A stretch of DNA of 64,000 nucleotides from Adhaeribacter radiodurans (GTDB lineage: Bacteria; Bacteroidota; Bacteroidia; Cytophagales; Hymenobacteraceae): NCBI RefSeq assembly GCF_014075995.1, contig NZ_CP055153.1, positions 3,658,001 through 3,722,000 of the forward strand, given 5' to 3'. A program made the translations under genes and the position numbers. Position 1 is the stretch's first letter. Each line of letters opens with the position of its first letter. This document shows positions 30,635 to 33,913 of this stretch, one piece after another. The notes beneath the pieces are model-generated. The model did no database searches and was not told where the DNA came from. It saw only the letters and a program-made list of their open reading frames with translations.

Positions 30635-31087
30635 GTTGCAGGTTACAAGTTGCAGGTTAAAAATTTTAATAATTAAATATTCTTAGTTTCTAGATTTTTT
30701 AAATATTTGATAAAAGCTGCCAATTACTGCGATAATTGAATAAGTTCATCGTATTTGTTTAGGTAATAAGCATCATCTAACGTTTTCAATTCTTTTAGAA
30801 CATACAGCTGATTTCTTAGTTCCCCAGCTGACCCTTTCGCGTATTTTAGAAATCTAATAAATTCTGCATTGTTGTTAGAAATAGACATGGCCGCTCGTTG
30901 CATTTGGTCCCGGGTACCATAATCCGGTTTTATATTTCCTGTAGCATACAGCTTATAAACATCAATAGCAATGACAGTAACTTTTTGGTAAATTTCTAAA
31001 TCCTCAAACCTTTCTACTCGCGCCATCTCAGAATCCTAAATTTAGAATTAACTTTTAACCTGAAACCTGCAACTTGTAAACTGCAAC
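30635..31087. mobile_element. IVS-like inverted-repeat element between trpE and trpG
   Basis: The 24-nt repeat at 30635-30658 (beginning GTTGCAGGTTACAAGTTG) recurs as its reverse complement at 31064-31087 with 23 of 24 bases matching; the right copy reaches the first base of the trpE stop codon. Between them sits the remnant of an S23-type four-helix-bundle gene in operon orientation. The arrangement, inverted ends able to pair in RNA around an S23 ORF, is that of the intervening sequences in 23S rRNA genes of Leptospira and others, but here it is in an mRNA. No transposase is present; how it moved is unknown. Confidence 0.6.
30673..31026 (-). pseudogene. Decayed S23/four-helix-bundle (IVP-like) protein
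   Basis: The frame starts MARVERFEDLEIYQKV and keeps RDQMQRAAMSIS and FIRFLKYAKGSAGELRNQLY, the core of the S23/IVP four-helix-bundle family (usually about 120 residues). Two defects are visible. About ten residues that normally follow SIxxNIAEG are missing around residue 52, and a TAA at 30724-30726 stops the frame after 100 codons, just before LAAFIKYLKN, the conserved last helix, which still follows in frame to 30673. It may still make a shortened protein. Homologues occur in 23S rRNA intervening sequences and beside reverse transcriptases (Avd); neither is present here. Confidence 0.7.
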
Positions 31088-32499
31088 TAAATCCCCGCCG
31101 CTTTTTCCATGGCGGAGCGGAGTGCGGCCAGTTTGTGGTGTACTTCGTTAAGTTCGGATTCCGGGTTGGATTTGGCTACTACGCCGGCGCCGGCCTGGTA
31201 ATGGAGACGGTTGCGGGTGCTCAAAAAAGACCGGATCATAATGGCGTGATTGAAATCGCCGTTAAAACCAATGTACCCAATGCAACCACCATAATATCCG
31301 CGGCGGGTGGGTTCCAATTCGTCAATAATGGTCATGGCGCGGTACTTGGGCGCACCAGATAAAGTACCCGCTGGGAAAGTATCGGCTACCATTAACATAG
31401 GAGCTACTTCTTTGGAGCGTTGGCTGGTTACTTTAGATACCAGATGGATAACGTGGGAATAATACTGTACTTCTTTAAAAACTTCTACCGCTACCTGGTC
31501 GCCGTGCCGGCCTAAATCGTTGCGGGCCAAATCTACCAGCATTACGTGCTCCGAATTTTCTTTCGGGTCGTCGTAGAGTTTACGCGCTAGTTCGGCATCA
31601 GAGTTATCGTTTCCTGTTCGGCGGAAAGTGCCGGCAATGGGGTAAATAGAAGCTTTGTTGCCCTTTAAAGTAATTTGAGCTTCCGGCGAAGAACCGAAAA
31701 TTTTAAAATTGCCGTAATCGAAATAAAATAAATACGGCGACGGATTAATAGAACGTAAGGCCCGGTATACATTAAATTCATCGCCCTTAAAACCTTTCGA
31801 AAATTTCCGGGATAATACAATTTGAAAAACGTTGCCTAGTTTGCAATGTCGTTGCCCTTCTACTAAAACTTTCAGGAAATGGTCGTCGGTAAAGTTAGAC
31901 GTTTCGTCGGGATCGGGGGTAAAAGTAAAAGCCGGAATATTTTTATTTTTAATTAAAGCTTCTAACTGTTCCAGACCTGGCCCGGTAGTATTTTCGTCGA
32001 TGCTATGCTCGAAAATATACAGCTCGTTTTTAAACGGATCAACTACCACAATAAACCGGTATAACCGGTACAGAATTTCAGGTAATTCCGGGTAAGCGGT
32101 TTCTTTGGGTCTAAACTCAATGTCTTCGTAATAGGTTACGGCATCGTAGGTCATGTACCCGAACAAACCATTAGTAATAAAATTAAACGGGTTGCTCCGG
32201 ATGAAAAAAGAATTAATAAATTCCTGCAAATGCTTAACGGCATCGCGCCGATCTTCCAGAGGAAATTGTTGTTCGGTACCATCCGGAAAGTATTGGCTGA
32301 TTACCTGGTCTTTTAATTCAAAACCACCAATGGGATCGCAACAAATGTAAGAATAGCTGTTCTCGTTACCGTGGTAGTCCGAACTTTCGAGCATGATGCA
32401 GTTCGGGTACTTATCGCGTAGTTGTAAATAAATTCCAACGGGAGTAACCGTATCGGCAAGGAGTTGTTTATGCGTACTATACAGCTTATATTTATTCAT
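31087..32499 (-). CDS. trpE: Anthranilate synthase component I
   Basis: 470 residues from the ATG at 32499; an in-frame TTG nine codons upstream is less likely. The N-terminal part carries an LLESSDYHG motif, a site used for tryptophan feedback in this family. The chorismate-binding domain shows FQIVLSRKF, NPSPYLFYFDYG, SPEAQI, PIAGTFRRTG, LVDLARNDLGR, FPAGTLSGAPK and GYIGFNGD. It makes anthranilate from chorismate with ammonia from TrpG. First structural gene of the operon, it lies 170 bases downstream of an attenuator terminator, so it is controlled both by leader transcription and by end-product inhibition. Confidence 0.97.
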   Translation of the reverse strand: MNKYKLYSTHKQLLADTVTPVGIYLQLRDKYPNCIMLESSDYHGNENSYSYICCDPIGGFELKDQVISQYFPDGTEQQFPLEDRRDAVKHLQEFINSFFIRSNPFNFITNGLFGYMTYDAVTYYEDIEFRPKETAYPELPEILYRLYRFIVVVDPFKNELYIFEHSIDENTTGPGLEQLEALIKNKNIPAFTFTPDPDETSNFTDDHFLKVLVEGQRHCKLGNVFQIVLSRKFSKGFKGDEFNVYRALRSINPSPYLFYFDYGNFKIFGSSPEAQITLKGNKASIYPIAGTFRRTGNDNSDAELARKLYDDPKENSEHVMLVDLARNDLGRHGDQVAVEVFKEVQYYSHVIHLVSKVTSQRSKEVAPMLMVADTFPAGTLSGAPKYRAMTIIDELEPTRRGYYGGCIGYIGFNGDFNHAIMIRSFLSTRNRLHYQAGAGVVAKSNPESELNEVHHKLAALRSAMEKAAGI

Positions 32500-32670
32500 T
32501 TTACTATTTTCGTTTTTCTCTGACAATTATTATGGATTTTGGTAAGGGCTAAAAACTTAGTAAGTGTAACCTGTTGTAAAGTTTACTTAGCCTTGCCAGT
32601 AATAATTTGTCCGGAAGAAGAAATAAAGTCTCATTGATTTATTAATTGTTTAGAATAAAGTCTTAAAAAT

Positions 32671-32699
32671 AAAAAAGCCCAAGTGAACTTGGGCTTTTT
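32671..32699 (-). terminator. trp attenuator terminator (3:4 hairpin)
   Basis: In the minus-strand RNA the stem GCCCAAGT/ACTTGGGC with a two-base loop, extended by A-T pairs, is followed by a U run. It lies between the Trp-rich leader peptide and trpE. Its GTTCACTT segment (32681-32688) can pair instead with GAGTGAAC (32731-32738) upstream, which would dissolve the terminator. Confidence 0.85.
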
Positions 32700-32737
32700 A
32701 TGCTATTTATAGCTGTATACAAACGTGCCGGTTCACT

Positions 32738-32755
32738 CTTTTAGGATTCTAAAAG
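32738..32755 (-). promoter_or_regulatory. trp attenuator 1:2 pause hairpin
   Basis: In the leader RNA, CTTTTAG-AATC-CTAAAAG forms a perfect 7-bp hairpin that begins right after the Trp-Trp-His codons. Formation of this hairpin limits the antiterminator; a ribosome stalled at the Trp codons would cover its first arm. Confidence 0.75.
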
Positions 32756-32794
32756 GTGCCACCAGCCAGCAGTATAAAGTTGTTTCATCTTCAT
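32741..32794 (-). CDS. trpL: trp operon leader peptide with tandem Trp codons
   Basis: A 17-codon frame, MKMKQLYTAGWWHLLES, with two adjacent tryptophan codons (residues 11-12) directly before the first arm of the pause hairpin. Tryptophan is rare, so a tandem pair in this position is diagnostic of ribosome-mediated attenuation. The peptide itself needs no function. The start may be the first ATG or the second at 32788, because the inferred transcription start is only a few bases upstream. Confidence 0.85.
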   Translation of the reverse strand: MKMKQLYTAGWWHLLES

Positions 32795-32801
32795 GATGCT
32801 G

Positions 32802-32831
32802 CAAATATAACATCCATAATTTTTGGTGCAA
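32802..32831 (-). promoter_or_regulatory. trp operon promoter (TTG-N19-TATATTTG)
   Basis: On the minus strand TTG (32829-32831) is followed after exactly 19 nt by TATATTTG (32802-32809), a perfect match to the Bacteroidota -33/-7 consensus. It lies in the 45-bp gap between the esterase stop and the leader peptide, so transcription should begin within a few bases of the leader start codon. Confidence 0.8.
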
Positions 32832-32839
32832 CTTTTTTT

Positions 32840-33913
32840 TTATTTTTTTGTGTAAAGCCATTTAAAAGCTTCCGGAAACTCACGCCGCCAGAACCATTCG
32901 CTATGATTGCCATCCGGACGGGTTTGGTACCAGATGTTTTCGTTGGGAAAATTATGGGCTACTAATTGGTTATACAACTGCTGCATTTGAGATACCATTT
33001 CTTCCCCTTCCTGCTCCCCGGCTAATAAAACCAGGCGGGTATTTTTAAAATCTTTCCTGGCGATAGTAAATATTTTATCAGAAAACCACAGGGAAGGAGA
33101 TAGTACCATAGCTTTGCCAAAAACGTGCGGGTAATGCGCAGCGGCATATAAGGATATTAAACCACCCAAAGAAGAACCGCCTATTCCGGTATGCTCCGCC
33201 TCAGGTTGCGTTCTAAAATGAGTATCAATGTAAGGTTTTAAGTCCTGAATGATAAACTGAAGGTATTTTTCGCCATCACCGCCTCCGTATTCGGGATTCT
33301 TGTAGGGAGTTAATTCGTTAATCCGTTCCTCTCCGCCATGTTCAATTCCCACTACAATCACTTGAGGTCCGCCCGTTTGCGCCATTTGATCTAAGGTTTC
33401 GTCTATGCCCCACTCTTCTGTAAAACTGTAAAAAGCATCGAATAGATTTTGCCCATCATGCAAGTAAAGAACTGGGTAGCGCTTTTTACTGGTAGCATAA
33501 TCGATAGGTAAATAAAGCCAAATCCGCCGGGTACGACCCAATTCGGGCATCTCAAAAGCAGAATCTAATACTTGCACCTGGGGGCTCGCTGTATGCTTTC
33601 TGGGAGGCCGCTCTACTAAATCCGTCCAATTAGCCACTTGCACCGAAACTTTAGCAGGAAAGGGCGGCTTAATTCTTCGGTTAGGCATATCGCTGCCGTC
33701 TTCTGCTGCTTCCACTGTTTCCCAGGTGCCACGCGTTACTTTAAATTCAACGGGCCTGTTCATAAAAGGCACTGTTATTACGTAGGTACCGTTTGGCTGG
33801 GGTTGTAGCTTGTAAACCGGTACCCCCGGCTGCCACCGGTTAAAATTACCAACAAGGTACAAATGCGCATCGGCGGGAGTATCATCTGGAATTTTATCTA
33901 CAATTATTTTCAT
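32840..33913 (-). CDS. Putative esterase (esterase D family) with N-terminal CBM48-like domain
   Basis: 357 residues, no signal peptide. Residues 1-95 (YLVGNFNRWQPG...VEFKVTRGTWETVE) look like the Ig-type domain found before carbohydrate-acting hydrolases. From about residue 115 comes an alpha/beta hydrolase of the esterase D/enterochelin esterase type, with LPVLYLHDGQNLFD-like sequence, the nucleophile elbow GSSLG (Ser248) and the likely catalytic His337 in NHSEW. The substrate is unknown; feruloyl, acetyl-sugar or siderophore esters are all possible. It runs divergently from the GH13 gene. The trp promoter lies immediately after its stop. Confidence 0.85.
   Translation of the reverse strand: MKIIVDKIPDDTPADAHLYLVGNFNRWQPGVPVYKLQPQPNGTYVITVPFMNRPVEFKVTRGTWETVEAAEDGSDMPNRRIKPPFPAKVSVQVANWTDLVERPPRKHTASPQVQVLDSAFEMPELGRTRRIWLYLPIDYATSKKRYPVLYLHDGQNLFDAFYSFTEEWGIDETLDQMAQTGGPQVIVVGIEHGGEERINELTPYKNPEYGGGDGEKYLQFIIQDLKPYIDTHFRTQPEAEHTGIGGSSLGGLISLYAAAHYPHVFGKAMVLSPSLWFSDKIFTIARKDFKNTRLVLLAGEQEGEEMVSQMQQLYNQLVAHNFPNENIWYQTRPDGNHSEWFWRREFPEAFKWLYTKK

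Follow-up and report, generated by a model that had tools for sequence, protein, structure and literature searches.

A probable ribosome-mediated transcription attenuator ahead of the trp operon in Adhaeribacter radiodurans and its relatives

A short open reading frame with two adjacent tryptophan codons, followed by a hairpin and a T run, lies ahead of trpE in the window, the stretch of 64,000 nucleotides of Adhaeribacter radiodurans DNA analysed here. Does this arrangement sense tryptophan through a translating ribosome, as an earlier note on this DNA proposed, or is it an ordinary terminator beside a chance reading frame? Our comparison of sequences and modelled RNA folds indicates that the element very probably attenuates transcription of the trp operon in a ribosome-mediated manner.

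Locus, promoter and anatomy of the leader

The operon runs trpE-G-D-C-F-B-A on the minus strand, with the attenuator ahead of it and a DAHP synthase gene after trpA (Pfam). Matches to PF04715 and PF00425 identify its first gene as a true trpE. Alignments with species other than the closest ones begin around residue 10 (5 to 18) of the frame that opens with TTG, and codon 10 of this frame is an ATG. The ATG at 32499 is thus the likely start, which places trpE at 31087-32499 (minus strand). Measured from 32671, the terminator lies 145 nt before the TTG at 32526, as claimed earlier, and 172 nt before the ATG, against the 171 nt claimed. Between trpE and trpG, a gene of 100 amino acids resembling 23S_rRNA_IVP is found by Pfam (30724-31026, minus strand), so that the full order reads trpE-(IVP-like ORF)-G-D-C-F-B-A.

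The leader peptide ORF MKMKQLYTAGWWHLLES (32741-32794, minus strand) has 17 codons plus a stop. Its tandem Trp codons 11 and 12 (32759-32764, minus strand), located by sequence and codon scan, are the putative sensor, and both features are as first described. In all eight members of the window's genus (group g1) the peptide keeps AGWWHLLE, followed by one last residue.

A promoter had been placed just upstream, and a -7 box is indeed present there. This box, TATATTTG (32802-32809, minus strand), lies 7 nt from the start of the leader ORF and matches the Bacteroidota sigma-A consensus TAnnTTTG; the predicted transcription start is near 32797. A possible -33 element, TTG (32829-32831, minus strand) within GTTG, stands 19 nt ahead of the -7 box. 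GTTG has three of the four letters of the -33 motif TTTG of B. fragilis, a motif which, according to the accessible text of the same source, was not found in F. johnsoniae (PMC7366714). The TAnnTTTG box is reported to be located at -12 to -5, and 5.5% of mRNAs to be leaderless in the species studied (PMC9723704).

Lengths of 5' UTRs were predicted solely from the position of TAnnTTTG with this -12 to -5 rule. They come to 3 nt before the AUG in 8/8 g1 loci, which would make the leader mRNA of this genus almost leaderless. The same rule gives 0 nt in all 15 first leaders of genus g6, which carries two leaders (see below), and 17-18 nt in 8/8 g4 loci. The values are 23-37 nt in 17 of the 19 g5 entries and 28-51 nt in 18 of the 22 g3 entries, these counts including a few chance WW frames. 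Loci of the Rfam family RF01692 have 0-3 nt in 6/17 and 12-16 nt in 11/17. Among 19 entries from the order, no TAnnTTTG box was found within 70 nt in 10.

Folding defines four regions on the minus strand. Region 1, CACCTTTTAG (32749-32758), pairs in the free RNA with the part CTAAAAGAGTG of region 2 (32734-32744), and the pairing CTTTTAG/CTAAAAG has a predicted P of 1.0. The hairpin was said to start one codon after the Trp pair; it is present there, after CAC, and is longer than stated. In the fold of the 182-nt region the His codon CAC is also paired with GTG of region 2, a pair possible in 22/22 distinct rows of the 23 aligned sequences. This pairing at the start of region 1 may explain why His directly follows the two Trp residues.

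The antiterminator part of region 2, GAGTGAACCGGC (32727-32738), pairs with region 3, GCCCAAGTTCACTT (32681-32694), with a duplex energy of -14.8 kcal/mol. The target comprises the inner 5' arm of the terminator, its loop and the first bases of its 3' arm. The 8-bp match proposed between antiterminator and terminator is borne out by GAGTGAAC (32738-32731) and GTTCACTT (32688-32681), one G-U included. It gains GGC:GCC pairs with the terminator 5' arm, and the whole reads GAGTGAAC-C-GGC against GCC-CAA-GTTCACTT. In E. coli trpL the antiterminator pairs with the terminator 5' arm alone, whereas in the window it takes the terminator loop together with bases flanking the loop on either side. The intrinsic terminator (32665-32699, minus strand) consists of the 3:4 hairpin (32699-32672, -15.8 kcal/mol) and the T run.

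Folding behaviour of the switch

RNA was folded from the predicted start 32797 at several transcript lengths, with ribosome footprints masked. In the free RNA, 1:2 forms with P = 1.0 and 2:3 with P = 0, and the terminator rises from P = 0.03 at length 117 to 1.0 at length 120, where 6 of its 11 3'-arm bases are made. With the ribosomal A site on Trp 11 or Trp 12, 2:3 reaches P = 1.0 and the terminator is about 0 at both lengths. With the ribosome at the stop codon, 2:3 has P = 0 and the terminator P = 1.0 from length 120. Masked and unmasked folding of about 32796-32660 thus returns the mutually exclusive hairpins that the earlier note had predicted. When the 3' arm is complete, at lengths 125 and 128, the terminator still wins with a stalled ribosome, so that the mechanism would rely on kinetics. 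A scan of all codons, with a 14-nt downstream footprint, confines antitermination to A-site codons 9-15, both Trp codons inside. Three features of the attenuator class are present in the sequence or its predicted folds: a WW leader before trpE, exclusive 1:2, 2:3 and 3:4 helices, and an intrinsic terminator before trpE.

We infer the following course of events. Transcription would start about 3 nt before the leader AUG, and a ribosome would follow RNA polymerase while translating the 17 codons of the leader. If charged tRNA-Trp is sufficient, the ribosome would reach the stop codon and cover region 2, the 3:4 terminator would form and transcription would end near 32665. With scarce charged tRNA-Trp, it would stall at Trp 11 or 12 and cover region 1; region 2 could then pair with region 3 while the terminator still lacks part of its 3' arm, and polymerase would read into trpE. 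Without translation the 1:2 hairpin would form and the terminator would win.

Such behaviour is rare in shuffled sequence. When the segment from the Trp codons to the terminator was shuffled, a stall suppressed the terminator in 7/500 cases, and the full switch (suppression on stall plus a terminator kept in the free RNA) was reproduced in 1/500. The 182-nt region has a fold z of -4.73, and none of 200 shuffles was as stable. Across the 64-kb window there are 640 ATG-started ORFs of 8-30 codons, nested starts included, and 5 distinct ones contain WW. The trp leader is the only one of these five then followed by a terminator-like hairpin, as judged by our own criterion.

Conservation of the leader and its switch among relatives

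We sought trpE in 150 genomes of the window's family and found a close trpE in 146; G001, G007, G065 and G071, with matches to distant paralogues alone, were left out. The upstream sequence was examined in 70 of the 146, namely the 30 best-scoring loci, among them that of the window, and 40 retrieved by position. In 70/70 of these loci trpE is preceded by a short WW or WWW ORF; in one (L043) the leader starts with GTG. Relatives lacking the Trp codons or the hairpins, named earlier as evidence that would count against the proposal, were found neither among the eight g1 members nor, as regards the WW leader, among the 70 family loci. Outside the family, 17 of the 25 best-scoring loci of the order have a WW/WWW leader plus terminator. 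The other eight lack such a leader, seven of them having no WW ORF and one a WW ORF without terminator.

This conservation bears on the plainest alternative, that the hairpin is an ordinary intergenic terminator, constitutive or belonging to the esterase gene, and the WW frame a chance neighbour. The esterase gene adjoins the element upstream on the same strand and ends at 32840, and a hairpin with a T run would fit any terminator. However, the consensus -7 box stands between esterase gene and terminator, and the leader and switch strands are kept in 8/8 g1 members, even in L006-L009 with their much shorter spacing to trpE. The single shuffle in 500 with a full switch also argues against chance, and we consider this alternative very improbable.

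Equally improbable, in our judgement, is another kind of control by translation of the leader peptide, such as reinitiation, translational coupling or a Rho-dependent process, with the hairpins secondary. Reinitiation has been suggested as a way in which leader genes close to structural genes increase expression, and a further helix may form just upstream of trpE in close species (see below). However, the distances discussed in the accessible part of that proposal are 10-14 nt (PMC4833913), against 242 nt from the leader stop codon to the trpE ATG in the window, and the T-run terminator is conserved.

The attenuator reading was followed further in a length scan of 23 sequences (8 g1 and 15 g6 first leaders), which gives the number of 3'-arm bases needed for a terminator P of 0.5. 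In 8/8 g1 sequences this value is reached with 4-5 bases in the free RNA and with 7-8 when a ribosome sits on either Trp codon. The 15 g6 first leaders need 3-4 bases free and 6-9 stalled, one stall never reaching P = 0.5. A Trp stall thus delays the terminator in 23/23, by 2-4 bases in g1 and 3-6 in g6, and with the ribosome at the stop codon the number of bases needed differs from that of the free RNA by at most 1 in 23/23.

A cruder test, in which the transcript was cut once, halfway along the 3' arm, had preceded the scan, was replaced by it for these 23 sequences and was dropped as a family-wide count. Within g1 it showed the terminator cut to 0.14-0.24 by a Trp stall in L002, L006 and L009, and still favoured (0.77-0.97) in L003, L004, L005, L007 and L008; a C-U mismatch is present in the antiterminator of L006-L008. 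Among the rows listed, no stall effect was seen in L022 and several g4 and g5 loci. Four g5 loci with WWWP-type leaders (L025, L027, L062 and L063) behaved in the reverse order in this test: a ribosome placed on the Trp codons favoured the terminator. Their geometry may be different, or the model may fail there.

The region 2:3 duplex was compared with shuffled strands in several groups. Its median energy is -14.8 kcal/mol in g1 (reached by 0/800 shuffled strands), -17.2 in g6 leader 1 (10/1500), -19.1 in g6 leader 2 (4/1500), -14.2 in the RF01692 loci (42/1700) and -11.6 in g3 (32/1900, with L049 dropped of 20 rows for strands not recognised). When strands were exchanged between groups, the own-group duplex was strongest in three of five rows, those of g1, g6 leader 1 and RF01692. 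The strands of g6 leader 2 paired better with g3 terminators, and those of g3 better with RF01692 terminators.

The covariation check suggested earlier gave a mixed answer. It was carried out on the 8 g1 and 15 g6 first leaders, 22 rows of which are distinct. The supporting part lies in the terminator, where three pairs read A-U in g1 and G-C in g6; this is mostly one contrast between two genera, with few independent events. Two bases of these pairs, those of columns 119 and 120, have further partners in region 2. One of these partners is A in 5/8 g1 rows and G in 15/15 g6 rows, the remaining 3 g1 rows having a mismatched C, and the second is G in 22/23 rows. In the six core 2:3 columns there is hardly any variation and no covariation, and one column is unpaired in 14 of the 22 distinct rows. 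The MAFFT alignment misplaces a gap beside GTGAAC, and the outer antiterminator pairs were therefore counted by script.

A covariance model made from the 23 sequences finds one strong site in the window's own genome, the trp site at 101.4 bits, with the next match at 30.8. Of the 24 weaker matches in this genome we retrieved nine, all of them lacking a WW leader. Across 149 genomes of the class the same model gives matches at E <= 0.01 in 29. Nineteen class loci outside the own genome were fetched, and in three of them (L259, L265 and L269) the examined stretch contains a WW leader. Most weak matches of the model are probably plain terminators.

Known leader families and tandem attenuators

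The earlier note knew of no described attenuator of this exact form in the lineage. As a statement on the phylum this does not stand: Bacteroid-trp (RF01692, "Bacteroidete tryptophan peptide leader RNA") was published in 2010 among the probable cis-regulatory RNAs of Bacteroidetes (Weinberg 2010, PMC2864571). A 2019 paper describes its structure as similar to that in E. [...] and names psychrophilum (PMC6414381), and a flavobacterial transcriptome study found signs of leader-peptide attenuation ahead of amino acid operons (PMC9723704). What does stand is that the RF01692 model (cut-off 49 bits) misses g1, with no match in 32400-32950 even at E <= 10. Among the open-licence papers listed in literature searches, judged by titles and abstract starts, none treats trp attenuators in this Bacteroidota branch.

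Of 198 genomes sampled from the phylum, 17 have RF01692 matches, and these 17 belong to a single other family; among 14 controls Bacteroides ihuae has a match as well. In 20 loci from the window's family and order the model gave a single match, to L109 from another family, at 48.5 bits. At Rfam gathering thresholds the whole window matches RNase P alone and no riboswitch. At E <= 10 the stretch 32400-32950 has 25 matches, all below the cut-offs of their families. The best of these is Trp_leader RF00513, which spans the model end to end with 32.8 bits and E = 7e-5 (cut-off 41); on the g1 locus L007 it scores 31.5 bits. A leader that binds tryptophan or a protein directly, as a riboswitch or TRAP-like system would, has the stable fold of the leader in its favour, but the Trp codons are kept between genera while much of the surrounding RNA differs and no Rfam riboswitch reaches its cut-off, so this alternative is extremely improbable and the least credible of the three.

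The probable ribosome-mediated attenuator of the window is a divergent example, not listed in Rfam, of a class that had been described in the phylum before. All 17 RF01692 loci have a WWW leader plus terminator, and, as in the window, a GUGA strand after the leader can pair with the loop and arm of the T-run terminator; sequence and stem lengths are different in the window. With the enterobacterial trp leader the window shares the adjacent Trp codons and the hairpins 1:2, 2:3 and 3:4 in the same order. Unlike that leader, it has a Bacteroidota-type promoter and a predicted start that is nearly leaderless. A leaderless Trp-sensing leader, for the window a prediction, is already known from Sinorhizobium meliloti, whose trpL / rnTrpL transcript begins at the leader ATG and has reported trans activities (PMC7298713). 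Unlike the host of the window, S. meliloti is an alphaproteobacterium, and its leader peptide has 14 amino acids.

All 15 loci of g6 (L010-L024) have two WW leaders in series, about 145-170 nt apart and each with its own terminator, located some 305 and 148 nt ahead of the trpE match. No TAnnTTTG box was found within 70 nt of the second leader in 15/15, and this leader therefore probably depends on read-through from the first. Pairing crosswise between the two attenuators is weaker, with medians of -10.0 and -9.4 kcal/mol against -17.2 and -19.1 for their own partners. The window element resembles the first of the two g6 leaders. Tandem attenuators have been published for the Salmonella mgtCBR operon (PMC3641672).

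We tentatively propose, giving the idea rather less credence than doubt, that the window attenuator is the surviving upstream copy of such a tandem pair. It would sense tryptophan through a ribosome on an almost leaderless 5' end (3 nt; 0 nt in g6), from the emergence of the RNA onwards, and read-through in g6 would need both stalls. A relic of a second leader was sought between terminator and trpE in the window, and its alignment to g6 leader 2 scored within the range of shuffled sequences. In a quick TrpE tree, g1, g6, g4 and 8/9 g5 rows fall on one side of a branch with SH-aLRT 97. A sister relation of g1 and g6 was considered and set aside: the tree leaves the order of g1, g6 and g5+g4 unsettled, and its outgroup is not on one side of a branch. 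The tandem ancestor is accordingly put forward purely as a hypothesis.

The stretch between the trp terminator and trpE holds a second short ORF, MRLYFFFRTNYYWQG (32587-32634, minus strand), whose peptide contains many Phe, Tyr and Trp residues. The core FRTNYYW recurs in four closely related species (L002-L005), where some codons have changed synonymously; in the loci fetched from the remaining four g1 members nothing matches this pattern. A wider family was rejected: at least 119 stretches from many phyla carry the pattern, many of them in short frames that are presumably other frames of unrelated genes. The ORF is claimed for the four close species only. Inside it, 32600-32614 can pair with 32518-32532 just upstream of the trpE ATG (minus strand). 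Judged by eye from the alignment, one A-U pair of this helix is U-A in L003, and in L005 it is so only if shifted by one base. This hints at another RNA helix, one that would cover the start of trpE.

One branch of the Bacteroidota escapes the trp-leader families of Rfam, though every one of the 70 trpE loci examined in the window's family carries a Trp leader. Since attenuation of this kind needs ribosome-polymerase coupling, the leader would offer a test case for such coupling in a phylum described as without Shine-Dalgarno sequences (PMC9723704). The tandem version in g6 is a ready experiment on attenuators in series; if the tandem proposal is true, the two stalls needed there would give a steeper response to tryptophan.
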